Assembly (NCBI GenBank): GCA_009841435.1
Contig: VXLW01000125.1
Coordinates: forward strand, 1-64,000
DNA length: 64,000 bases
From: Dehalococcoidia bacterium
Lineage (GTDB): Bacteria > Chloroflexota > Dehalococcoidia > Tepidiformales > Tepidiformaceae
Direction of reading: 5' to 3'
The notes under the pieces were generated by a model. That model saw only the letters and a program-made list of their open reading frames with translations, searched no databases and was not told the DNA's origin. Below, piece by piece: positions 6,811-25,419 of this stretch (positions within the stretch are counted from its first letter, which is position 1; the number at the start of each line of letters is the position of its first letter). Made by a program: the position numbers and the translations under genes.

Positions 6811-7344
6811 ATGCTGACATCCACCCTCAAGAGGCGGCCGCTCCACGCTGGAGTGACTGCGGCCTGCCGTCTCATCCTCGCACTGGCGCTTGGCGCGCTG
6901 GTGGGTGCCTGCCAAGAAGACGCAGCACCGACGCCAGCCGCTTGCGACCAACCCGCCCCCTACTCCGTCACGATCACCGCCAGGGACGGTGCTTTCGATC
7001 CTCCCCACATGGCCCTGCCCCCGGGCGTCACGGTGGTTCTGACCCTCGACAACCAAGACGAGGACGTCACGCACAGCTTCACCGTCTGGTATCTCGGGGA
7101 TGAGGTGGTCCACCCCTACAACCCGGGCGGGTGCCTCTGTGGCTGCGAGGGAAGTGATAGCGACCCACAGCAACTCGGGTCGCCAGCGGTGGAAGGGGGA
7201 ACCAGCCACACCTTCACCTTCACGTCACCGCCGTTGTTGGCTTACAGGTCCGAGCCGCTGAGCCGCTACACCTTCTGGTGCGAGTTTCACCCGGACACGA
7301 TGACAGGCGAGTTCTGGGTGGCGGGGCCGGGCGACTTGGAGTAG
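6811..7344 (+). CDS. cupredoxin-domain lipoprotein, 177 aa
   Basis: The N-terminal signal ends in the lipobox LVGAC, so the mature protein should be lipid-anchored outside the membrane. The C-terminal half has the plastocyanin-like pattern: an upstream HSFTVW histidine and a C-x3-H-x4-M cluster (CEFHPDTM), which together would bind one type-1 copper. An inserted CLCGCEG loop between them is unusual. Start uncertain: GTG at 6763 overlaps the upstream stop, but ATG 6811 gives a normal-length lipoprotein signal. Likely role is electron transfer or copper handling, by family. Confidence 0.7.
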   Translation: MLTSTLKRRPLHAGVTAACRLILALALGALVGACQEDAAPTPAACDQPAPYSVTITARDGAFDPPHMALPPGVTVVLTLDNQDEDVTHSFTVWYLGDEVVHPYNPGGCLCGCEGSDSDPQQLGSPAVEGGTSHTFTFTSPPLLAYRSEPLSRYTFWCEFHPDTMTGEFWVAGPGDLE

Positions 7345-10392: not shown

Positions 10393-10710
10393 ATGACTCC
10401 TCTGCATGCGGCGGTCGCATTCCACAAGAGCCCCGCAGTCGTTCAGGCCTTGCTGGACGCCGGGGCCAACGTTGATGGGAGGGACCACGATGGCAGAACG
10501 CCTCTCCATAATGCGGCCCGGTCGGGCGACCTGGCGGCCGTCCAAGCCTTGCTGGACGCCGGGGCCGACGTTGAAGCAGAGGATCACCGCAGGGTGATGC
10601 CCATCGACGATGCCACTTTCTATGAGAACCTAGAGGTTCGGCAAGCTCTATTGGACGCCGGGGCCAGCTTCGAGCCGACGCCAACACCGACTCCTACCAC
10701 AGGAGACTGA
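10393..10710 (+). CDS. short ankyrin-repeat protein, 105 aa
   Basis: About three ankyrin repeats: MTPLHAAV..., GRTPLHNAARSGDLAAVQAL, and a final degraded one, each ending in a LLDAGA-type loop, then a Pro/Thr tail. Ankyrin repeats are protein-binding modules. The frame begins in the middle of a repeat consensus (TPLHAA) with no good ribosome site, so this may be the remaining end of a longer ankyrin protein. No signal peptide. Partner unknown. Confidence 0.55.
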   Translation: MTPLHAAVAFHKSPAVVQALLDAGANVDGRDHDGRTPLHNAARSGDLAAVQALLDAGADVEAEDHRRVMPIDDATFYENLEVRQALLDAGASFEPTPTPTPTTGD

Positions 10711-13069: not shown

Positions 13070-13699
13070 CTACGTTCTTCTCTCTACTCCCTTGTCATCC
13101 CCAAGCAGTCCGTCGTAACTCGCCAGCGCACCCTTTTGCGACGCCGGTAAGTCGGGCTCGCGACCTTGCGAGCGACTACCCGCCAGCCACTCGCCGGGCG
13201 AACGCCCGGTGGCGACGCACGCCCGTATCACGATTTCGGCGGCCGCCCGCGCATCCTCCCCAGCGTTGTGGTGCTCGAACACTACCCCGAGATAGGCTGC
13301 GACGGACGCCAGCCCCCAGCCCCTGCCCGCGAACTGCGGCCATGTGCGGCGCGCCACTCCTGCACTGTCGAGCCACCGCGCGGCGAACATCCGCAGCCCG
13401 GCTCGCTCCGCGGCGGCTGTCAGCGCCATCCGGTCGAACATCGTGTGGCATACCACGATCCGGTTCGCGAGTCGTCCCTCAATGTCGCCCCACGCTTCCG
13501 ATAGCCGCGGCAGCCCCGCCAGATCGCTGGCGGTCATGCCGTGCACCTCCGTGTTGAGGGGACTGACGGGTGCTTCCGGGTCCAGCATCCGTTCCCACAC
13601 GTCTTCGACGCGGCCCGCACGCACGGCCGCAATCCCCACCGCGCACACCGATCCGACATCCGCGTTCGCGGTCTCCACGTCGACTGCCACGAAGTCCAT
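13070..13699 (-). CDS. DEDDh 3'-5' exonuclease (DnaQ-like) beside cas3
   Basis: 209 aa. All exonuclease motifs are visible: ExoI D-V-E near residues 7-9 (VAVDVETA), ExoII around VCHTMFDRMAL, and ExoIII HNAGEDA, the H-x-A-x-x-D of the DEDDh subgroup. It is a stand-alone nuclease domain, unlike the polymerase III proofreading subunit. Its start lies only 49 bases from the GTG of cas3, transcribed divergently. In other CRISPR systems DnaQ-like exonucleases trim pre-spacers before Cas1-Cas2 integration, and some I-E Cas2 proteins carry a DnaQ fusion; Cas2 here does not. A role in spacer acquisition is therefore plausible but inferred. Confidence 0.85.
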   Translation of the reverse strand: MDFVAVDVETANADVGSVCAVGIAAVRAGRVEDVWERMLDPEAPVSPLNTEVHGMTASDLAGLPRLSEAWGDIEGRLANRIVVCHTMFDRMALTAAAERAGLRMFAARWLDSAGVARRTWPQFAGRGWGLASVAAYLGVVFEHHNAGEDARAAAEIVIRACVATGRSPGEWLAGSRSQGREPDLPASQKGALASYDGLLGDDKGVERRT

Positions 13700-13748
13700 G
13701 CGCTTCTCGCCTCGCCGACCCTCGTGGCAAGGATGCTACCCTCTCGCA

Positions 13749-16337
13749 GTGACGAACAGCGCACCCTACCGCACTGCATTCTGGGCCAAGGCCGCGCCGT
13801 TCGGCGTGCGTGACCCCGAACGCATCCACCTCCTTGCCCACCACCTCGCCGACGTTGGCGCGACCATGGAGGCACTGCTCCGCCAGCCCACGATCCGGCA
13901 CCGCGTCGCGGGGGCCGGTGGCCTAGACGATCTCCCCGAATCCACCGCCGCCCGCCTCGCGGTCTTCGCCGCGCTGCACGACATCGGCAAGGCCAACGTC
14001 GGCTTTCAGTGCCGCATCTGGCCTCACGAGACCGGGCTGCCGCAGCGCGCCGGGCACACCGCTGACCTCGCGCCGGTGCTGGCTGGGCGCGACACCGAGA
14101 CCGCACGGTGGTTCGGCGATGGCATTGCCTGGGACGAGATCGCCGCATGGGACGATCGTGGCGGCGCGGTCGCGTTCGACATGCTCGTCGCCACGATCTC
14201 CCACCACGGCGATCCCATCGCGCTCGAGGGCGGTCGCGGGGCGAACCCGGCCGCATGGTGCGCCTTCGGTGCCATCGATCCCAGCGCGGAGATTGCGGCG
14301 ATCGGCCGCGCCGTCCGCGAATGGTTCCCCGCCGCCTGGGATCCGGCGGCCCCGCCGCTGCCCGCGTCGCCGGCCTTCCAGCACATGTTCCTCGGCCTCT
14401 GCACGCTTGCCGACTGGATCGGCTCGAACACGGAGTGGTTCCCCTTCTCGTCCGACCCCGACCCCGCCTACATCGACCGCGCCCGCAAGCAGGCAGCCCG
14501 CGCCCTGCGGGACCCGCGCGTCGGGCTGGACATCGAAGAGCAGCGTGAGAAAGAAGGCGCGGAGCCCGCCCGCGACTTCCGAGCGCTGTTCGATCTCGCC
14601 GCGCCACGCCCCGTGCAAGAGCACGCCATCGGCGATCTCTCCGAGCGCTTGATGCTCATCGAGGCCGAGACGGGCTCCGGCAAGACCGAAGCGGCCCTGT
14701 GGCGGTTCAGCGAGCTCTACCGCGAGCGGCGCGTCGATGGCGCATATTTCGCGCTGCCGACCCGCGCGGCGGCGAAGCAGCTTCACGAGCGCATGCAGGG
14801 GTTCGCCCGGCGCGCCTTCGAGTCGAAGATAGACGTCATCCTGGCGGTTCCGGGCTACGAAGCCGGCACGCGCGGACTTGCCGATTCGCAGTATGCCGAT
14901 GACGCTCCCGGCCTCCCGTGGGCGACCGAGAGCCCCAAGCGATTCCTCGCCGCCCAGCTCGCCGTCGGCACCGTCGACCAGGTGCTGCTAGGCGCGCTAC
15001 GTGTCCGGCACGCCCACCTGCGCGCGGCATCCCTTGCCCGCAACCTGCTGATCGTCGACGAGGTTCACGCGTCCGACGCCTACATGCGTGTCATCCTCCA
15101 CGCCGCGTTGCGAATGCATCTGGACGCCGGCGGCTGCGCCGTGCTCCTCTCCGCGACGCTCGGCGCGGCGTCGCGCTCCTTCTGGCTCGGCGAGGACGTA
15201 CCGCGACTCGATCAGGCGATCAGCGTCCCCTACCCCGCCGTATCGGTGCAGGGCGGACGCGTGACGGAGCATCCGGCGGCGCGCGAGAAGCGCGTCTCGG
15301 TCCACGCCAGGGCCGCCATGGACGACTACGCTGCCGTCGCGTCGGACGCCGTCGCTGCTGCTCGCTGCGGCGCGTCCGTGCTGGTGGTCCGCAATACCGT
15401 CGACGCCGCCCTTCGCACCCAGCGCGCCGTCGAAGCCGCTGCCGGCGCAGCGAGCGACCTGCTCCTGCGCGCCGCCGGGCTCGCGACACCGCACCATGGG
15501 CGCTACGCCGCCTCCGACCGTCGCGAGATCGATCGCGCCATCGAGGAGCGCTTCGGGAAGGGACGCGCGGACGCATCTGGCGCAGTCGCAGTAGGCACGC
15601 AGACGATCGAGCAGTCGCTCGACCTAGACGCCGACCTGCTTATCACTGACATCTGCCCAGCGGACGTGCTGCTGCAGCGCATCGGGCGTTTGCACCGCCA
15701 TGACCGCGGGCGTCCGTCCGGGTTCGAGGCACCACAATGCGTCGTGCTCACGCCGGACAGCTCCACGCTCGCTCCTTTGCTGACGCGACCGCGCAACGGG
15801 CTGGGGGCCTATGTCTACCCCGATCTGCGAACGATCGAGGCGGTGCGTCGACTGATCGGCGATGACACCGAGTGGGACATCCCCGCCGACTCGCGGCGTA
15901 TCGTTGAATCCGGCACTCACCCCGACGAGCTCGCCGCCATCGAGCGCGACCTCGGGGAGTCGTGGACGGAGCACGCCCTGCAGGTGGACGGCAAGCGCAT
16001 CGCTGAGCGCCTGAGTGCTGAGCACTCCGTCATCGATACAGGCCAGTCGTTCTTCGGTGACAACGCCGACATCCTGTTCCCACCCAACGACGAGCGCATC
16101 CGCACACGCCTAGGCGATCCCGCGGTCGACGTGACGCTCTCCGGGGCGAACGGCGCCTTCGGCGGTGACGTCGACCGTATCGCCATCCCGCGCCGCTGGC
16201 TGCCCGCCGTCATTTCCGATCCTGGCAGTCTCGCCGCGGTCGCGGCACCTTCGGACGGAGGCTTCGCCTTCACCGTCGAGGGCCGCGCGTTCACGTACGA
16301 CCGATTCGGACTCGTGCGTACGCCCGTCGCGCGTTGA
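13749..16337 (+). CDS. cas3: CRISPR-associated nuclease-helicase Cas3 (type I-E)
   Basis: 862 aa from GTG at 13749, which gives the family start (FWAKAAPFGVRDPERIHLL); the open frame further upstream is antisense to the exonuclease. The N-terminal HD nuclease shows an AHH near residue 31 and HDIGK at 77-81. Helicase motifs follow: ETGSGKT 307-313, DEVH 437-440, SATLGAAS, and GTQTIEQSLDLDADLLITD with QRIGRLHRH. It degrades DNA marked by Cascade. cas3 is separated from cas8e by about 320 bases holding two repeat-like hairpins and a promoter, so it may be regulated apart from the Cascade operon. Confidence 0.95.
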   Translation: MTNSAPYRTAFWAKAAPFGVRDPERIHLLAHHLADVGATMEALLRQPTIRHRVAGAGGLDDLPESTAARLAVFAALHDIGKANVGFQCRIWPHETGLPQRAGHTADLAPVLAGRDTETARWFGDGIAWDEIAAWDDRGGAVAFDMLVATISHHGDPIALEGGRGANPAAWCAFGAIDPSAEIAAIGRAVREWFPAAWDPAAPPLPASPAFQHMFLGLCTLADWIGSNTEWFPFSSDPDPAYIDRARKQAARALRDPRVGLDIEEQREKEGAEPARDFRALFDLAAPRPVQEHAIGDLSERLMLIEAETGSGKTEAALWRFSELYRERRVDGAYFALPTRAAAKQLHERMQGFARRAFESKIDVILAVPGYEAGTRGLADSQYADDAPGLPWATESPKRFLAAQLAVGTVDQVLLGALRVRHAHLRAASLARNLLIVDEVHASDAYMRVILHAALRMHLDAGGCAVLLSATLGAASRSFWLGEDVPRLDQAISVPYPAVSVQGGRVTEHPAAREKRVSVHARAAMDDYAAVASDAVAAARCGASVLVVRNTVDAALRTQRAVEAAAGAASDLLLRAAGLATPHHGRYAASDRREIDRAIEERFGKGRADASGAVAVGTQTIEQSLDLDADLLITDICPADVLLQRIGRLHRHDRGRPSGFEAPQCVVLTPDSSTLAPLLTRPRNGLGAYVYPDLRTIEAVRRLIGDDTEWDIPADSRRIVESGTHPDELAAIERDLGESWTEHALQVDGKRIAERLSAEHSVIDTGQSFFGDNADILFPPNDERIRTRLGDPAVDVTLSGANGAFGGDVDRIAIPRRWLPAVISDPGSLAAVAAPSDGGFAFTVEGRAFTYDRFGLVRTPVAR

Positions 16338-16446
16338 CCGGCACGCGCCCCATCGCGGCATGGTCATCTCGCTAGCGCTGGTCGTGGCACAATCGAGCCG
16401 ACGCGCTACCGTCGGCCAAGAACCAAGGAGCGATCACAGACAACAG
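16338..16446. other. intergenic DNA downstream of cas3
   Basis: Start of the 319-base gap between cas3 and cas8e. No gene and no clear terminator. A weak CACAAT lies about 60 bases before the first pseudo-repeat and could be a poor -10 element. Confidence 0.3.
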
Positions 16447-16523
16447 CCTCACCCCGCGCAAGCGGGGGTAGACCGTCGGTCGCTGGCTGCGCGTCAAGTG
16501 CCCCGCGCAAGCGGGGGTAGGCG
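16447..16523 (+). repeat. two degenerate CRISPR-like repeats (mini-array)
   Basis: Two 28-base units at 16447-16474 and 16496-16523 share an identical 20-base core (16452-16471 and 16501-16520). Each keeps the same 6-bp stem CCCCGC/GCGGGG as the main array repeat but with a GCAA loop instead of ACGC, followed by GGTAGACC or GGTAGGCG in place of the array's GGTAGGCC handle. Only 21 bases lie between the units, giving a 49-base period versus 61 in the array. They are upstream of the cas8e promoter and could yield a small Cas6e-processed RNA, or be a relic. Confidence 0.75.
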
Positions 16524-16590
16524 GCCGGCAGCATCGCACCCTGTCTCCGCGCTCAGCGCCCCACACGCCAGTGCCGCCACTTGCTGCATA

Positions 16591-16619
16591 TTGACCACCG
16601 GGCGGCTGAGGGATAGATT
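16591..16619 (+). promoter_or_regulatory. predicted sigma-70-type promoter of the Cascade operon
   Basis: TTGACC (16591-16596), 17-base spacer, TAGATT (16614-16619); 5/6 and 4/6 matches to consensus. Transcription would start about 30 bases before the cas8e ATG. The pseudo-repeats end about 70 bases upstream of the -35. Confidence 0.45.
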
Positions 16620-16656
16620 CTGGCCAACCAGCTACCGTATTGGAGTCGAACCTGAT

Positions 16657-18210
16657 ATGAACCTGCTTGACGACCCACTGATTCGCATCGTCGGCGCCGC
16701 TCCCGCGACGCTGCCCGACCTCTGCGCGCGCATCGCCCGCGGTGAAGCCGTGCCGGGCTTCCCGGCGCTGCGCCCCCACCAGCGCCATGCTTGGCACGCC
16801 TTTTTGGTGCAACTTGGCCTGATCGCCTTGGAGCGCGCCGGGGTTGAGGTATCGCAGATGCCGCTCGACGCTGACGCATGGCGCGATCTCCTGCACGGGC
16901 TCACGCCCGACCACCCCGGCGACGACCCGTGGCGACTGGTCGTGGACGACACGACGGTCCCGGCCTTCATGCAGCCGCCCACCGTGAACGGTGAGTCGAG
17001 TTACAAGCAGCGTGACGACACTCCTGACGACATCGACATCCTCGTTGCCTCGCGCCATCACTCGATAAAGGCGGGCGCGGCGCGGCGCGCCCGCCCCGAC
17101 GACTGGCTCTTCGCGCTCATCACTCTGCAGACGATGGGGGGGTACGGGGGCCCCGGCCTGTACGGCGTCGCCCGTATGAACGGCGGCTACAGCTCCCGCC
17201 CGGCCTTCTCGCTCGTTCCCGCCGGTGCCGACTTCGGCGCGTGCGTGCAGCGCGATATCGTCGCGCTGCACGGGCAGTGGGCGGAGTTGCGCCGCGACTC
17301 TCCGTTCAGCGGCGATGCCGCCCTGCTCTGGCTCGATCCATGGGGCGGCACGAAGAGCGAGATGTTGCCGCCCGGCGGGGTGCATCCGCTCGCCATCGAG
17401 ATTTGCCGCCGCATCCGCCTTCGCACCGACGAAACCGGTGATGGGATCTTCGCAATCCGTGCGTCGTCGAAGGCGCGGCGCATCGCCGCAGCGGACCTTC
17501 ACGGACTCACCGGCGACCCTTGGACTCCGAGGTCCACAGACAAGGTGCTGCATGTCTCCCCCGGCGCGGCGTTCCAGTACGACCACATCTCTACCCTGCT
17601 GGGACCGGGCGACTGGCGCCTGCCCCTACTCTGCCACGCCACGCCCGACGAGAAGGGCTCCGGCGCGCGGATGCACCTCATCGCACGCGCCGTTATCGGC
17701 GGCCAGGGCCGTACGGACGGCTATCGCGAACGCATCATCCCGCTGGGCGCGTCGTCCGTGCGGGCGCTTGGCGTTGCCGATAGCGGCCTCGGCGCGATCG
17801 CGCGCGATCGCGTCGACCAGGTGAAGAAGGTGCAGACGGCCCTGCGCTCCGCTCTCTACACGTTCATCGCATCCGACGCCGGTGACTCGTCGGCTAACTT
17901 CGAGCATGTCCGCGCGTGGCAGAACCGCCTCGACGAGATCGTCGAGGATTCCTTCTTCGACGCCCTGCAGACGGAGTTCGAGGCCGCCGAAGCCGATCGC
18001 AGCGCTGTTCGCCACGCCTGGCTCCGTGTCGTCGTCGATGCGGCGACCGCCATCTTCCGCGACGCCATGTTGGCGCTGCCGCACCACGCAGCGCGACGGT
18101 ACCGTGCGAGAGCGCAGGCCGAGCGCCGATTCCAGCAGCGATTGCGCGGCCCGAACGGAGTTCCGTCGCTGTACCACCATGAAGCGGATGGGGAACATGA
18201 CGCAGCCTGA
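16657..18210 (+). CDS. cas8e: Cascade large subunit Cas8e (Cse1/CasA)
   Basis: 517 aa. ATG 16657 follows GGAG and starts MNLLDDPLIRI, as in the family; the open frame runs further upstream but without support. The N-terminal ALRPHQRHAWHAFLVQL segment and the following PAFMQPP and TMGGYGGPGLYGVARMNGGY regions are characteristic; the latter includes the loop that reads the PAM. It occupies the 5' end of crRNA in Cascade and recruits Cas3. The last codons overlap cse2 by 14 bases. Confidence 0.95.
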   Translation: MNLLDDPLIRIVGAAPATLPDLCARIARGEAVPGFPALRPHQRHAWHAFLVQLGLIALERAGVEVSQMPLDADAWRDLLHGLTPDHPGDDPWRLVVDDTTVPAFMQPPTVNGESSYKQRDDTPDDIDILVASRHHSIKAGAARRARPDDWLFALITLQTMGGYGGPGLYGVARMNGGYSSRPAFSLVPAGADFGACVQRDIVALHGQWAELRRDSPFSGDAALLWLDPWGGTKSEMLPPGGVHPLAIEICRRIRLRTDETGDGIFAIRASSKARRIAAADLHGLTGDPWTPRSTDKVLHVSPGAAFQYDHISTLLGPGDWRLPLLCHATPDEKGSGARMHLIARAVIGGQGRTDGYRERIIPLGASSVRALGVADSGLGAIARDRVDQVKKVQTALRSALYTFIASDAGDSSANFEHVRAWQNRLDEIVEDSFFDALQTEFEAAEADRSAVRHAWLRVVVDAATAIFRDAMLALPHHAARRYRARAQAERRFQQRLRGPNGVPSLYHHEADGEHDAA

Positions 18211-18778
18211 CCAGCACTCCACTGACTCCGAGCGCGCGTCCGCGATCGCGCGCTACCTCGCGGCCGAACACTTCCCGCGCGGCGACCTAGCCGCACTCAG
18301 GCGCATGGCGCCCGGCGCGCCGGACGCACGCGCCCCGGCGTTCTACCGCATCGCCGCGCGGTTCGATCTCTTTGGGTCGCCCGAGCGCGAGCGCGCTTGG
18401 ACTCTCGCCGTTCACGGCATGGCGCTCATGACGCGGACCGCCGGGCCGGAGCGCTCCGCCCACAATCCGCGTGTCGCCGTTGGGCGCGCGCTGTACCGCG
18501 GCGACCGGGGCGGCGAGCGCGCCTTCTACAGCGCGGACCGGCTCGATCGCCTGCTCGCCGCGCGCGGCGACCCCTTCGAGTCGCTCGTCTCGCGCCTGTG
18601 CCGCACGCTCGGACGCGTCGGCGTGTCGTTCGACTGGGGTGAGATGGCAATGTTCATCCTCGCGCCCGACGGGCCGCGAGCCGACGTTGCGCGCGGGCGG
18701 ATCGCCGCCAACTACTACGGCGCCGAGGCATATGCCGAAGCGCAGGCATCATCGGAAGACAAGGAGACCGCCGCATGA
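18197..18778 (+). CDS. cse2: Cascade small subunit Cse2 (CasB, Cas11e)
   Basis: 193 aa. ATG 18197 chosen for its GGGGA just upstream; ATG 18188 is an in-frame alternative. All-helical basic protein with the Cse2 pattern: RRMAPGAPDA near the N-terminus, YRIAARFDLFG, then LVSRLCRTLGRVGVSFDWGEM near the C-terminus. Two copies form the belly of Cascade, contacting the non-target strand. It overlaps cas8e at its start and cas7e (ATGA) at its end. Confidence 0.93.
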   Translation: MTQPDQHSTDSERASAIARYLAAEHFPRGDLAALRRMAPGAPDARAPAFYRIAARFDLFGSPERERAWTLAVHGMALMTRTAGPERSAHNPRVAVGRALYRGDRGGERAFYSADRLDRLLAARGDPFESLVSRLCRTLGRVGVSFDWGEMAMFILAPDGPRADVARGRIAANYYGAEAYAEAQASSEDKETAA

Positions 18779-19908
18779 CCGATGTCCGCTTTATCCAGAT
18801 CCACACCCTGCACGGCTACCCCGCCGCGCTTCTCAACCGCGACGACTCGGGGCTGGCCAAGCGTATCCCGTATGGCGGTGCGGTTCGCACCCGCATCTCG
18901 TCGCAATGCCTCAAGCGCCACTGGCGGGTCGCCGACGACGCTCACGCCATCCACGCCGTTCCGGGCGCGGAGAAAGCGGTGCGCTCGCGCAACATTGTCG
19001 ACCGCGAGGTGGTGGCGGTGCTTCGCAAGGACGGCACGCCCGACGATGTCACCGATGCTATCGGCGAGGTGTTCAACGAGGGCGTGTACGGTGACAAGGG
19101 TGGCGAGGAGAGTGGACGGCAGCCGCTGCTGCTGGGTGAGCCCGAGATCCGACACCTGCTGGAGCGCGCCCGGGTCATCGTCGCCGAGCACGGAGACGAC
19201 GCCGCCGCAGTGCGAAAGGCAGCGGAGGCCCTCTTCCCGAAGGAGCGCGCCAACTGGCAGGCGTTCCGCGACCAGACACGCCTGCCCGGCGGCATTGAAG
19301 GCGCGCTCTTCGGACGCATGGTGACCTCCGACCCCGGTGCCAACATCGACGCCGCGATCCACGTCAGCCACGCGCTCACCGTGCATCGCGAAGAGTCCGA
19401 GATGGACTACTTCTCGGTGGTCGACGATCTCCGCACCGCCGACGAGGACGCCGGCGCTGCGCACATCGGTGACACCGAGTTGACCGCTGGCCTCTTCTAT
19501 GGCTACGTCGTGGTCGACGTTCCAGAGCTCGTTTCCAACGTCGCAGGGGACCGCGAACTTGCCGCGAAGATCGTCGCGAACCTGCTGCACCTCATAGCCA
19601 CCGTCTCGCCCGGCGCGAAGCTCGGCTCCACAGCGCCCTACGCCTACGCTGACACCATGCTTGTCGAGATCGGCGGGCGACAGCCCCGCAGTCTCGCCGC
19701 CGCGTTCCGCGACCCGGTCGTGCCGAGTGTCGACGTGGCCGCCAGCGCGCTGGCGGACCAGCTCGCGCGCTACGACGGGGCCTACGGTCCGCACGAGGCG
19801 CGACGTGCGATGGCCACTGTCCCGCAGGAGTTCTCCGACGCCGAGTCCAGCGCGTTGCCCGACATCGCCGGGTGGGTCGAGTCCGCCATCGCGGGTGGGG
19901 GCGCATAG
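18775..19908 (+). CDS. cas7e: Cascade backbone subunit Cas7e (Cse4/CasC)
   Basis: 377 aa with the family opening FIQIHTLHGYPAALLNRDDSG and the RISSQCLKRHWR segment near residue 45. Six copies form the crRNA-binding filament; Cas7 has an RRM-like fold with a thumb domain. The start overlaps the cse2 stop by four bases (ATGA), so translation is coupled. Length is normal for I-E. Confidence 0.96.
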   Translation: MTDVRFIQIHTLHGYPAALLNRDDSGLAKRIPYGGAVRTRISSQCLKRHWRVADDAHAIHAVPGAEKAVRSRNIVDREVVAVLRKDGTPDDVTDAIGEVFNEGVYGDKGGEESGRQPLLLGEPEIRHLLERARVIVAEHGDDAAAVRKAAEALFPKERANWQAFRDQTRLPGGIEGALFGRMVTSDPGANIDAAIHVSHALTVHREESEMDYFSVVDDLRTADEDAGAAHIGDTELTAGLFYGYVVVDVPELVSNVAGDRELAAKIVANLLHLIATVSPGAKLGSTAPYAYADTMLVEIGGRQPRSLAAAFRDPVVPSVDVAASALADQLARYDGAYGPHEARRAMATVPQEFSDAESSALPDIAGWVESAIAGGGA

Positions 19909-19910
19909 CG

Positions 19911-20648
19911 ATGGTCCGCCACATCATCCTGCGGTTCGAGGCGCCGCTGATGTCGTTCGGTGACCAACGGATCGACCACATCGGCCCGACGGGCCGCTTC
20001 CCAGCGGCGTCAATGCTCACTGGCTTGCTCGCCAACGCATTGGGGTGGTCACGGACCGACGGCGAGAAGCTGCGCGAGCTGCAATCGCGCATCCGTTACG
20101 CGGCGCGCGTCGACGTCGAGGGGCGACGTGTAGACGACTTCCAGACGGCACAGCTCGGCGCCGACGATCGGGGATGGACTACGAGCGGCACCCCTGACAA
20201 GCGTGCTGGCCACCCAGCGACCTATGACGCACCTCACATCCGGAGGCGCACGTATCTGGCCGACGCCGTCGCGACCGTCGCGCTCCGGCTCGAGTCCCCG
20301 TCGTTGGCGCCATCCATAGACGATGTCGCCGCTGCGCTCGTGACGCCCGCACGCCCGCTCTTCGTGGGCCGGAAACCGTGCCTGCCCACCGCCCGTGTGT
20401 TCGCGGGCCACGCCGAGGGCGATACCGCGCTCGAAGCGCTCCTCGCCTGGCCGCTGGACCCCAGGAGCGGCGGCGATGTGCCGTGCATGTGGGCCGCCGC
20501 CGACGCACCCGCTTGGGCCATCGCATCGGATACGCGTACGGTCGCGGACGAGCGTCAGTGGGCGGAATCCGGCCTGCACGGAGACGGGCGAACCGTTTGC
20601 GAAGGCAGCATCTCGCGCAAGCGGTTCGCGACGGGAGCCCCCGCATGA
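19911..20648 (+). CDS. cas5e: Cascade subunit Cas5e (CasD)
   Basis: 245 aa from ATG 19911, two bases after the cas7e stop. N-terminal RRM-type strand VRHIILRFEAPLMSFG, then RFPAASMLTGLLANALGW, is the Cas5e signature. Cas5e caps the 5' handle of the crRNA next to Cas8e. Ends with a four-base overlap into cas6e. Confidence 0.94.
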   Translation: MVRHIILRFEAPLMSFGDQRIDHIGPTGRFPAASMLTGLLANALGWSRTDGEKLRELQSRIRYAARVDVEGRRVDDFQTAQLGADDRGWTTSGTPDKRAGHPATYDAPHIRRRTYLADAVATVALRLESPSLAPSIDDVAAALVTPARPLFVGRKPCLPTARVFAGHAEGDTALEALLAWPLDPRSGGDVPCMWAAADAPAWAIASDTRTVADERQWAESGLHGDGRTVCEGSISRKRFATGAPA

Positions 20649-21355
20649 CCCCCGCGTCGCCGCTGCACTTTTACGCTTTCGAGGTGGACTTACGCGAGTT
20701 CGATCGCTGGTCTGGAATGCGCGACATCCACGACCGCGACCTTGCCACGCACTCCCTTCTGGCGGAGCTGTTCGGTGAGGGCGCGCCGCGCCCCTACCGC
20801 CTCGTCACTGTGCGCGACGCCCCGCGCGGAACGCTATATGGGTACGGGCCCCGCCCAGTCGACGACCTGCGCGGGACTGCGGAAACCCTGGGCGCGCCCG
20901 ACCAGCTCGCTGCGCTTCCCGTCGATCGCATGCGCGGCAAGCCGATGCCCATGGTCCCCGGGGGTACCCGCGTCTCTGTCGAGACTCGGGTCCGTCCGGT
21001 GCGCCGCAACGGCAGCCGCGAACTCGACGTGTTCATCGCCGACGGACGCACGGAGAGCCGCGAGGCCGCTTACGCCCGCTGGTGGGCGGATACCTGTGCC
21101 CGCTCCGGCCTCGACCTCGATCACGACACCATCCGCCTCGTTGCCTTCTCGCTCGTCCCGTTCTCTGCGAAGCGGCGCCGAGGCAAGCGCCCGATCGGTC
21201 CCGACGCCGTACTGCGCGGCGTCGGGAAGGTGACGGACGCGGACTCGTTCCACTCTCTGATTGCACGGGGGGTAGGCCGCCACCGCGCGTACGGGTACGG
21301 AGCGCTGCTGCTGAGCCCCGCTCGCTCGGCCGCCAACGATGGCGCAGCTCCATGA
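20645..21355 (+). CDS. cas6e: crRNA-processing endoribonuclease Cas6e
   Basis: 236 aa; the ATG overlaps the cas5e stop (ATGA). Double RRM-like fold with the C-terminal glycine-rich loop GVGRHRAYGYGALLL of Cas6 proteins and a HDRDLATHSLLAELF N-terminal helix; the conserved His in that helix is the probable catalytic residue. It cleaves the array transcript 3' of the CCCCGC/GCGGGG repeat hairpin, leaving an 8-base 5' handle. The same hairpin stem exists in the two pseudo-repeats, so they may be substrates too. Confidence 0.95.
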   Translation: MTPASPLHFYAFEVDLREFDRWSGMRDIHDRDLATHSLLAELFGEGAPRPYRLVTVRDAPRGTLYGYGPRPVDDLRGTAETLGAPDQLAALPVDRMRGKPMPMVPGGTRVSVETRVRPVRRNGSRELDVFIADGRTESREAAYARWWADTCARSGLDLDHDTIRLVAFSLVPFSAKRRRGKRPIGPDAVLRGVGKVTDADSFHSLIARGVGRHRAYGYGALLLSPARSAANDGAAP

Positions 21356-22233
21356 AAGGGCGCCTCGGCCTCGATACGGCACGCGTGCCTCATTCCGATC
21401 GACACGGCCTTGTGTGGTTGTCGCGCGGCGCCCTCGTCGTGCGGGAAGGCACGCTGCGCTTCATCCGCGACGTTCCACCTGACACCAGCAGCGCGTTGGG
21501 CGAAGGGGACTACGCCATCCCCTTCCAGACCCTTTCGGCGATCCTGCTCGGCCCCGGCTCGACGGTCAGCCACGACGCGCTCCGCCTCATGGCGCGTCAC
21601 GGCACCATCCTCGTCGCGGTCGGCGAGGATGGTGTCCGCTGCTACACAGCCCCGCCGCTCGGCCCCGACAACTCCGCGATCGCGCGGCGTCATGTCGAAC
21701 TCTGGGCCGACCCCGAGCAGCGCATGGCCGTGACCTTGCGCATGTACGAGATCCGGATCGGAGAGCCCGTGGCCGGGCGCAGCCTTGACGCCCTGCGCGG
21801 CATTGAGGGGGCACATGCGAAGCGCAGCTACCAGATCGCAGCCTCGCGGCACGGCATCATCTGGCGTGGCCGGCGCTACGATCGGATGGCTCCGCTCGCC
21901 GCGGATATCCCGAATCAGGCCATCAACCATGCATCGGTCGCCGTTGTCGCCGCCGCCGCCGTCGCCGTCGCATCCACACGGGCCATCCCCGCGCTGGGCT
22001 TCATCCACGAGGCGTCGGGGGAGGCTTTCGTCCTCGACATCGCGGACCTCGTGCGCGACACGGTGACCGTTCCGGCGGCGTTCGCCGCTGCACGCCTCAT
22101 TGAGGTTGAGCCGTCGCGCAACGTGGAACGGACGGTCCGACGGACCGTCGGGGAGCGCATCCGAGAGGAGCGCGTGATACCGAAGATGATCGACTTCATC
22201 CACGACTTGATCGGCGGGGAATCGGGGAAGTGA
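21352..22233 (+). CDS. cas1e: CRISPR integrase Cas1e
   Basis: 293 aa; ATG 21352 overlaps the cas6e stop. The I-E Cas1 features are present: N-terminal LVVREGTLRF strand, FQTLSAILLGPGSTVSHDALRLMARHG, and the C-terminal FIHEASGEAFVLDIADLVR segment with the metal-binding His and Asp; the upstream glutamate of the active site should lie in the HAKRSYQIAASRHG region's preceding helix. With Cas2 it inserts new spacers at the leader end. Confidence 0.96.
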   Translation: MKGRLGLDTARVPHSDRHGLVWLSRGALVVREGTLRFIRDVPPDTSSALGEGDYAIPFQTLSAILLGPGSTVSHDALRLMARHGTILVAVGEDGVRCYTAPPLGPDNSAIARRHVELWADPEQRMAVTLRMYEIRIGEPVAGRSLDALRGIEGAHAKRSYQIAASRHGIIWRGRRYDRMAPLAADIPNQAINHASVAVVAAAAVAVASTRAIPALGFIHEASGEAFVLDIADLVRDTVTVPAAFAAARLIEVEPSRNVERTVRRTVGERIREERVIPKMIDFIHDLIGGESGK

Positions 22234-22526
22234 CGATCGTCGTCACGATTGCCGCCGCTGGCCGGTTCCGCGGTTTCCTAGCGTCGGTGATGCTTGAGAT
22301 CGCCGCTGGCGTCTACATTGCTCCAGCCATGACCGCAGGGGTGCGCGATCGCGTTTGGGGCGTTCTCGCCCAGTGGCATGCCGACCTTGACGACGACGGC
22401 GTGATAGTCATGGCGTACCCCGACCGCGACATGCCCGGGTACCATGGCCTGCGCTTTCTCGGCGAGCCGCCCAAGGAAATCGTCGACGCGGATGGCGTCT
22501 ACTTGGTTCGACGGAGCCCGGCCTGA
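22230..22526 (+). CDS. cas2e: CRISPR adaptation protein Cas2e
   Basis: 98 aa, GTG start overlapping cas1e by four bases. The family segments GRFRGFLASVMLEIAAGVYIA and WGVLAQWHADL are clear. It is the structural partner of Cas1 in spacer integration. It has no DnaQ-like C-terminal extension, unlike some I-E Cas2 proteins, which makes the separate exonuclease at 13070-13699 worth noting. The gene ends about 117 bases before the first array repeat. Confidence 0.94.
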   Translation: MTIVVTIAAAGRFRGFLASVMLEIAAGVYIAPAMTAGVRDRVWGVLAQWHADLDDDGVIVMAYPDRDMPGYHGLRFLGEPPKEIVDADGVYLVRRSPA

Positions 22527-22643: not shown

Positions 22644-25419
22644 GGTTGCCCCGCACGCGCGGGGGTAGGCCCCACCTGAGCGCGGGCTGGCTCACGCCGG
22701 CGGAGGTTGCCCCGCACGCGCGGGGGTAGGCCCCAGCGATCCACCCAGTAGCGGATGCTGTCGGCGGTTGCCCCGCACGCGCGGGGGTAGGCCCCGATCG
22801 CCGATGCCGTTCTGGATCGTCATGCGGGTTGCCCCGCACGCGCGGGGGTAGGCCGGCATCGGTGGAGGCCTCGGAGGATGACGCCTGGGTTGCCCCGCAC
22901 GCGCGGGGGTAGGCCGATGACGGTGAGGATGGAGCCGATCGCGACGAGGGTTGCCCCGCACGCGCGGGGGTAGGCCCCTGTTCCCACAAACACAACGCTT
23001 ACGTACGGGGGTTGCCCCGCACGCGCGGGGGTAGGCCCTCCACGCTAAGGCCGCGCAGCTTGCCATCGGCGGTTGCCCCGCACGCGCGGGGGTAGGCCCC
23101 TGCAGCCCAACCTGGTGGCGCGCGGCATGGCGGTTGCCCCGCACGCGCGGGGGTAGGCCCCCGCTGGCCAGCACGTGGCACAACGAGCGCTAGGTTGCCC
23201 CGCACGCGCGGGGGTAGGCCCAGTAGCGATGCCCTTACGGGCTTCTGGGGTGGGGTTGCCCCGCACGCGCGGGGGTAGGCCGGGGTGGTAGTGGGCGTCG
23301 CCGCCGACCACGAAGGTTGCCCCGCACGCGCGGGGGTAGGCCCGGCAACGGCTACCTGCACACCACCGAGTGGGAGGTTGCCCCGCACGCGCGGGGGTAG
23401 GCCAGCAACATCCCCAACACCCTGATCTCGGACAGCGGTTGCCCCGCACGCGCGGGGGTAGGCCGCGCCAGGAGTTCTACGACAAGTGGGAGGAGCGGGT
23501 TGCCCCGCACGCGCGGGGGTAGGCCTCAGTACGTGAGCTCGTCGACGGACCCGGCGAAGGTTGCCCCGCACGCGCGGGGGTAGGCCCGGCGTTTGCGTGG
23601 CCATGGGCTACTCCTTCCTGGTTGCCCCGCACGCGCGGGGGTAGGGGCCCCGCATCATTAGCAGCCTCACGAACGGGACCGAGGTTGCCCCGCACGCGCG
23701 GGGGTAGGCCTCGTCGCCGACGAGGGGGCGACCCTGCGACGGGGGTTGCCCCGCACGCGCGGGGGTAGGCCGTGGACGGAGTAAAAGGAAAGACAGATAC
23801 CATCGGTTGCCCCGCACGCGCGGGGGTAGGCCCAGGGTTACCTGGTAGTTCGCGCTGCCGTGACCGGTTGCCCCGCACGCGCGGGGGTAGGCCCGTGAGC
23901 TCGTTCGGGTCCTCCACCACCACCGAGGTTGCCCCGCACGCGCGGGGGTAGGCCTCCTGCACGATCTTGTCTCGCAGCGACGGGAGAGGTTGCCCCGCAC
24001 GCGCGGGGGTAGGCCGTGCCTGGCCGAGAACGAGACGCTGACTCGCATCGGTTGCCCCGCACGCGCGGGGGTAGGCCCTCGTAGTGCAGCATCAGGGTCG
24101 TGACGGAGCGGGTTGCCCCGCACGCGCGGGGGTAGGCCTCCTCTGCGATCGCTGGGGCTACCTCCCCGAGCGGTTGCCCCGCACGCGCGGGGGTAGGCCT
24201 CAGAGACATACGCTGACGGGCCTTACGCAGGGGGTTGCCCCGCACGCGCGGGGGTAGGCCGTCAGCGGCGGCGGCAGGTCGCGCGAATAGAGGGGTTGCC
24301 CCGCACGCGCGGGGGTAGGCCCCACACGCGCTCGAGGTAGGCGCGGTCGGCGCTGGTTGCCCCGCACGCGCGGGGGTAGGCCATCCATACGATGCCCGTC
24401 ACACCGACTTCGGAGGGTTGCCCCGCACGCGCGGGGGTAGGCCCAACCGCCTTGTGGTGGCGCGTCGCCTAGGACTGGTTGCCCCGCACGCGCGGGGGTA
24501 GGCCTCGCTTGCACGGCGGCGCGCGGTTGGACCTGGTGGTTGCCCCGCACGCGCGGGGGTAGGCCCATCGCGATCGACCAGAACGGCCGGGGGTACCCGG
24601 TTGCCCCGCACGCGCGGGGGTAGGCCCATGGCGTTGCCTACGGAGGCCACCCGGTCTGCGGTTGCCCCGCACGCGCGGGGGTAGGCCGCGACTACCTTCT
24701 TGTAGACCGCTACCTCATCCGGTTGCCCCGCACGCGCGGGGGTAGGCCCATCATCAAGGAGCAGGTGGAGGCCGCCGTCAAGGTTGCCCCGCACGCGCGG
24801 GGGTAGGCCAGATGAGCGCCGGCGTCATGCGGCGCCCTCGCTGGTTGCCCCGCACGCGCGGGGGTGGGCCCCGCGCCCGCTGACGTGGCGGAACGGCGCG
24901 TGGGGTTGCCCCGCACGCGCGGGGGTAGGCCTTCGTGGCGGCGGTGGATGACATCGCCGTTTTGGGTTGCCCCGCACGCGCGGGGGTAGGCCCATCATCA
25001 ACGTCGTCGCCGGCGCCGCGTTCGTGGTTGCCCCGCACGCGCGGGGGTAGGCCGCGATGCAGGTCGATGTGGTTCAGCACGACGTGGGTTGCCCCGCACG
25101 CGCGGGGGTAGGCCCATCGTCCAACGGAAGGTCACCATCGCCGTCACGGTTGCCCCGCACGCGCGGGGGTAGGCCCAAGGAGTCGGTGACCGAATGGTGC
25201 GTGACGTAGGTTGCCCCGCACGCGCGGGGGTAGGCCGTAGGCCGTATGGAGGTCGGCGGGTTCGTACTGGGTTGCCCCGCACGCGCGGGGGTAGGCCCCC
25301 CGAGTTCTTCGCGCAGGCGCAGCATCTCTAGGTTGCCCCGCACGCGCGGGGGTAGGCCCGTCAAAGACGTGCGGCCAGGTGACGGTCTGCGGGTTGCCCC
25401 GCACGCGCGGGGGTAGGCC
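22644..25419 (+). CRISPR. type I-E CRISPR array, 46 repeats, 45 spacers
   Basis: The 28-base repeat begins GGTTG, has the hairpin CCCCGC-ACGC-GCGGGG and ends GTAGGCC. I counted 46 copies from 22644 to 25392 (starts). The period is 61 bases (33-base spacers) except after repeat 17 (63) and after repeat 23 (62). Repeats are identical apart from repeat 17, whose end has two extra G (GTAGGGGCC), and repeat 38, which ends GTGGGCC. Even the last repeat is intact. Leader side is left, next to cas2e, and the plus strand carries the crRNA sense. I found no spacer matching the rest of the window by eye, but this was not exhaustive. Confidence 0.98.

Follow-up and report, generated by a model that had tools for sequence, protein, structure and literature searches.

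CreR is a cas-regulating RNA attributed to Liu et al. (2023, Cell Host Microbe) in passages of PMC13131331, PMC12948488 and PMC12737573. As summarized in the relevant passage of PMC13131331, partial complementarity to cas promoters reportedly lets CreRs autorepress the cas genes of types I-B, I-E and V-A, and competition of crRNAs or anti-CRISPRs for Cascade reportedly lifts this repression (passages of PMC13131331 and PMC12737573). For one CreA that has been studied, positions 1–5 and 7–11 are required and positions 6 and 12 are irrelevant (PMC8501985). In a haloarchaeal CreA, function was lost whichever of the 10 seed bases was changed (PMC8501985).

Here we describe a pair of repeat-like units between cas3 and cas8e in an uncultured Chloroflexota lineage. 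Judged from sequence comparisons, this pair is very probably a two-repeat mini-CRISPR encoding a CreR-type RNA, which would steer Cascade into repressing cas8e together with the genes that follow. The repeat pair and its target are a further example, in Chloroflexota, of a known type of regulator. The less expected part of the analysis is not this CreR-type element but the small genes that related loci carry between the targeted promoter and cas8e.

Two ectopic repeats between cas3 and cas8e

The window (the whole 64-kb stretch of DNA analysed) contains a complete type I-E gene set, cas3-cas8e-cse2-cas7-cas5-cas6-cas1-cas2, on the plus strand. The cas3 gene (13344–16337; HD nuclease and helicase, start codon uncertain; Pfam Cas3_HD and Cas3 C-terminal, NCBIfam cas3_core and cas3_HD) is followed by cas8e, or cse1 (16657–18210), which matched NCBIfam casA_cse1 with 46 bits, below the curated cutoff, and whose product is ∼47–50% identical to the Cas8e proteins of related loci. 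Behind it are an ORF with cse2/cas11 (17882–18778, true start internal; Pfam CRISPR_Cse2, NCBIfam casB_cse2), cas7e (18775–19908; Pfam Cas_CT1975, NCBIfam casC_Cse4), cas5e (19872–20648), an ORF with cas6e (20378–21355, true start internal; Pfam CRISPR_assoc, NCBIfam casE_Cse3 below cutoff), an ORF with cas1e (21082–22233, true start internal; NCBIfam cas1_ECOLI) and cas2e (22230–22526; NCBIfam cas_CT1978). The cas6e product is the expected processing enzyme for the mini-array. The CRISPR array (22644–25419, plus strand) consists of 46 repeats of GGTTGCCCCGCACGCGCGGGGGTAGGCC with 33-nt spacers, and a phage search with the array, aimed at its PAM, gave one weak match that is likely due to chance and no protospacer from which the PAM could be read. 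Elsewhere in the window, 99-nt tandem units were seen at 10435–10665, the plus-strand translation of which (AVVQALLDAGANVDGRDH, by eye) resembles ankyrin repeats.

The two units, R1 (16447–16474) and R2 (16496–16523), lie on the plus strand in the gap that extends from the cas3 stop (16337) to the cas8e ATG (16657), with an R1-to-R2 spacing of 49. Like the repeats of CreR, they are ectopic and degenerate, inside the cas locus and outside the array; R1 is identical to the array repeat at 20/28 positions and R2 at 21/28, and outside the array the pair is unique. An earlier note on this DNA had described two 28-base units with an identical 20-base core, a shared CCCCGC/GCGGGG stem, a GCAA loop and a separation of 21 bases, and we found all of these in R1 and R2. 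The core is CCCCGCGCAAGCGGGGGTAG, and the 21-nt insert, hereafter the guide, is GTCGGTCGCTGGCTGCGCGTC (16475–16495, plus strand). The stem is that of the array repeat, whereas the loop is GCAA in place of ACGC. Both units fold into a 6-bp stem with the GCAA loop, at −15.6 kcal/mol for R1 and −13.8 kcal/mol for R2. In a search of the whole 2.7-Mb genome, exact copies of CCCCGCNNNNGCGGGGGTAG were confined to the array, R1 and R2, and the full 20-base core was present in R1 and R2 only.

The last 7 nt of R1 agree with the array repeat at 6/7 positions, and R1 would supply the crRNA 5′ handle (GTAGACC) of the predicted guide RNA, with R2 as its putative 3′ hairpin. At 21 nt, the guide is 12 nt, or two 6-nt steps, shorter than the 33-nt array spacers. 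The interval 16300–16700 matched no Rfam family up to E=1. A promoter scan of the same interval recognised no promoter belonging to the mini-array itself; the sole promoter-like site (shuffle mean 0.0) was a predicted sigma-70-like cas8e promoter, TTGACC-17-TAGATT (16591–16619, plus strand; 9/12). The end of R2 is 67 bases upstream of its −35 box, in agreement with the ∼70 bases upstream of a predicted Cascade promoter noted earlier for these units.

Target of the guide at the cas8e start

Type I Cascade guides leave every 6th base unpaired. A search for an unbroken seed gave only a 7-base match inside cas3, off-promoter, and was replaced by a scoring in which positions 1–5, 7–11 and 13–14 are counted and an AAN PAM is required. 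This every-6th-base scoring was adopted after the relatives had displayed the pattern and was not fitted to the window site; the site itself was first spotted by eye, and the shuffle tests apply one scoring to all guides.

Whether the gap, the 64-kb window or the whole genome was searched, the best AAN-flanked site for the guide was at the cas8e promoter. The target (16625–16641, minus strand) reads 5′-AAT-ACGGTaGCTGGtTG from 16641 down to 16625, with the PAM AAT at 16641–16639 and protospacer positions 1–14 at 16638–16625. Mismatches are at positions 1, 6 and 12. As 6 and 12 are non-pairing positions, 11 of the 12 informative positions within 1–14 are matched, and the single informative mismatch, at position 1, is in the seed. 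The target lies 3 nt downstream of the −10 box and ends 15 nt ahead of the cas8e start codon. The runner-up AAN site in the cas3-cas8e gap scores only 5/12, and no further AAN site scoring at least 10 was found anywhere in the 64 kb of the window. Across the 2.7-Mb genome, no site but the cas8e-start target came within one mismatch of AANTCGGTNGCTGGNTG.

Shuffled guides equalled the window match in 2/20,000 and 1/50,000 trials. With the score over 15 positions that was applied to every locus, 35/50,000 shuffled guides and 34/50,000 random 18-mers from the window did as well as the guide. The chance level of the match is p ∼1e-4 to 7e-4. Among the array spacers, 0/43, and among spacer tiles, 0/689, reached the target score of the guide.

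The statement in the earlier note that no seed match longer than ∼6 bases exists at the cas promoters is correct for unbroken runs and fails under the every-6th-base rule, which gives a match over 14 positions, mismatched at one informative position only. The match had been overlooked because an unbroken run was sought, whereas type I guides skip every 6th base; this skipping explains why seed searches by eye fail. The search that the note had proposed, of the insert against the genome for a PAM-adjacent seed match, returned as its best site the AAT-flanked one at the cas8e promoter. The guide has seed-type partial complementarity to a cas promoter beside a PAM, with one mismatch at position 1, and the targeted promoter, itself predicted, would drive the effector cas genes with no toxin between; both are features by which a CreR is recognised.

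Mini-arrays and small genes in related type I-E loci

A Cas8e alignment, run against a single genome of each species, retrieved 58 related cas8e loci from Chloroflexota, Binatota, Gemmatimonadota, Acidobacteriota, Pseudomonadota and others. A repeat pair was present in 27 of them. Where the cas3-cas8e gap measured 200 bp or more, 26/29 loci had it; the 27th locus, L031, is on a contig without cas3. The three exceptions with such gaps are L027, where one repeat was seen, and L029 and L064, where the gap holds a whole second array. No pair was found in gaps shorter than ∼140 bp among the 58 loci. The second array of L029 (6276–6973) has no clear target, and the last unit (7036) of that in L064 (6365–7124) matches the gap beside AAC with 13/15.

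In all 27 loci with a pair, the first guide targets its own gap with a score of 11–15 of 15. When no PAM was imposed, the best gap site was flanked by AAN in 26/28 loci, window included; the target PAM of L048 is AGT, not AAN. Across the 27 loci, the match frequency between guide and target was ∼0.95 at positions 1–5, 0.07 at position 6, ∼0.92 at 7–11, 0.15 at position 12 and ∼0.83 at 13–17, and fell to background after 20. Read from sequence, this profile is a Cascade fingerprint. Ordinary array spacers compared with their own gaps reached 12 in only 1/626 cases. Over the same 27 mini-arrays (L024–L076), positions 6 and 12 matched below chance (6/54; binomial p ∼0.01), which looks like avoided pairing, though these bases are thought not to matter.

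The repeats of the relatives are also constrained, and differently at the two ends. In R1, the last 8 bases (handle) are nearly fully kept, save position 26, and the stem sequence drifts, while in R2 the stem is kept and the handle decays. Such a division would follow if the 5′ handle came from R1 and R2 contributed only the 3′ hairpin. Guide lengths are mostly at or within 1–2 nt of 21, 27, 33 and 39, values that are spaced by the 6-nt step of Cascade. In L037 and L039, guide and target co-change at positions 8 and 13–14. In loci with a recognised promoter next to the target, the distance from the −10 box to the start of the PAM is usually 1–8 nt. The second units of the three-repeat mini-arrays in L040 and L052 had no significant target. 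The comparison of this interval in related I-E loci, which the earlier note had put forward as a check, came out in favour of a regulator: the pair with a target in its own gap recurs in 27 loci, with the mismatches concentrated at positions 6 and 12.

The window is not the strongest member of this set. Its match, 12/15, is among the weaker ones, the mismatch at seed position 1 recurs in only 1/27 relatives (L043), and its target has an orientation opposite to that in most relatives. No Cas8e closer than ∼50% identity to that of the window was found in 196 genomes of relatives, 393 class-level and 400 phylum-level genomes. In G001, a genome of the same genus, the only I-E locus found has a 76-bp gap and no pair.

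In relatives, the targeted promoter is often 250–500 bp before cas8e, with a small ORF between. A Cys-rich, CxxC-rich small protein of about 55–90 aa recurs in this place in L033 (7086–7364), L038 (7209–7379), L040 (7218–7409) and L076 (6917–7108); the two members tested had no Pfam match. It is a candidate for a Cascade-repressed effector or toxin. L031 encodes a 165-aa HNH endonuclease-like protein (292–789) between the targeted promoter and cas8e. In L052, ARAGORN called a tRNA-Ala(AGC)-like gene (7097–7167) between the guide target and the mini-array, which was not reported by the Rfam tRNA model; a sequence similar to it by eye is present in L057 (∼7252–7330). The sequence in L052 is possibly a tRNA-mimicking payload. 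Related small ORFs, 35% identical, in L043 (3755–3988) and L047 (7257–7502) begin just past the targeted site, cross the mini-array and reach as far as the cas8e start. These small genes and the tRNA-like sequence could be payloads of the CrePA or CreTA kind. We suggest, tentatively and with more doubt than confidence, that type I-E loci of several phyla use the cas3-cas8e gap as a permanent site for a Cascade-guided switch with a varying payload, either cas8e directly, as in the window, or a small gene, and that guide lengths stepped by 6 nt would set the strength of the switch. If this is true, the small genes before cas8e (Cys-rich ∼60-aa protein, HNH protein, tRNA-like RNA) would be undescribed Cascade-repressed effectors or toxins.

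A proposed self-regulating guide and its alternatives

The best genomic match of the guide is at the start of the cas8e transcript, which indicates that the CRISPR effector most likely employs this RNA to turn down its own production. The mini-array, its target at the cas8e start and the constraint in relatives are seen in the sequences themselves; the following course of events we infer. The mini-array would be transcribed on the plus strand, perhaps by read-through from cas3, since the promoter scan recognised none for the mini-array. Cas6e would cut at both hairpins and release a short crRNA-like RNA made of the R1 handle, the 21-nt guide and the R2 hairpin. Cascade may load this RNA, probably as a shorter complex, and would then sit at the cas8e start and keep cas8e and the following genes from being transcribed. 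Because pairing ends after ∼14 bases, the bound Cascade would not call in Cas3 for destruction, and the target would stay uncut. The outcome would be a negative feedback, in which crRNAs or anti-CRISPR proteins that occupy or disable Cascade lift the block and more Cascade is made. This would place a feedback loop guided by Cascade in an uncultured Chloroflexota lineage.

The pair might instead be the dead relic of a minimal array, either a former cas-promoter guide or an immune array with an older repeat, now drifting and functionless. In favour of this, the seed is mismatched at position 1, from which weak or lost function could follow, most relatives have a better match, and R1 and R2 depart from the active array repeat in their loop and flanks. 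Against drift, both stems are perfect and the 20-nt cores identical, the sole near-complete genomic target is exactly at the cas8e start, and related loci hold the arrangement under clear constraint. A relic was the main alternative in the earlier note; the cas8e-promoter target and the 27 related pairs have made it less likely, and we consider it improbable, with the position-1 mismatch leaving some room for it. The same two results support the short-spacer crRNA-like regulator of the CreR type that the note had proposed.

There are two other readings. Two strong GC hairpins between genes of the same strand, which cas3 read-through could cross, might guide nothing and work in cis, either terminating transcription or giving Cas6e a place to cut the cas8e leader. 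This is very improbable, for the hairpins are not followed by a T-run, no terminator was called, the predicted cas8e promoter is downstream of both, and neither the guide match nor the selective retention of the R1 handle in relatives would be explained. An antitoxin guide of the CreTA or CrePA kind, which represses a toxin and makes the cell Cascade-dependent, is suggested by those relatives that carry a small gene, including the recurring Cys-rich protein, between the targeted promoter and cas8e. In the window, no second site scores at least 10 within the 64 kb, and the target ends so close to the cas8e start codon (15 nt) that no gene can fit between them; we regard such a guide as extremely improbable here.

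A CreR-type self-regulator remains the preferred reading, and it can be recognised in sequence by four marks: the kept R1 handle, the kept R2 stem, the AAN PAM and the break in the match at each sixth base. With these marks, such regulators and any small genes controlled by them are easy to find and test.

As far as the cited passages describe it, CreR resembles the window in being a mini-CRISPR beside cas genes, the guide of which is partly complementary to a cas promoter; set beside that description, the 21-nt guide, the seed mismatch at position 1 and the minus-strand target at the start region are the window's own features. The CreA of CreTA (PMC8501985, PMC9458426) also has two degenerate repeats (psiR1 and psiR2) with the R1 handle kept, pairs through seed positions 1–5 and 7–11 with positions 6 and 12 irrelevant, and takes Cascade to a promoter, but the window is without the toxin gene or RNA that CreTA has under the targeted promoter. 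CrePA (PMC12737573) is likewise a mini-CRISPR guiding Cascade repression, and differs from the window, which lacks a protein gene between the target and cas8e; some of the relatives have one.
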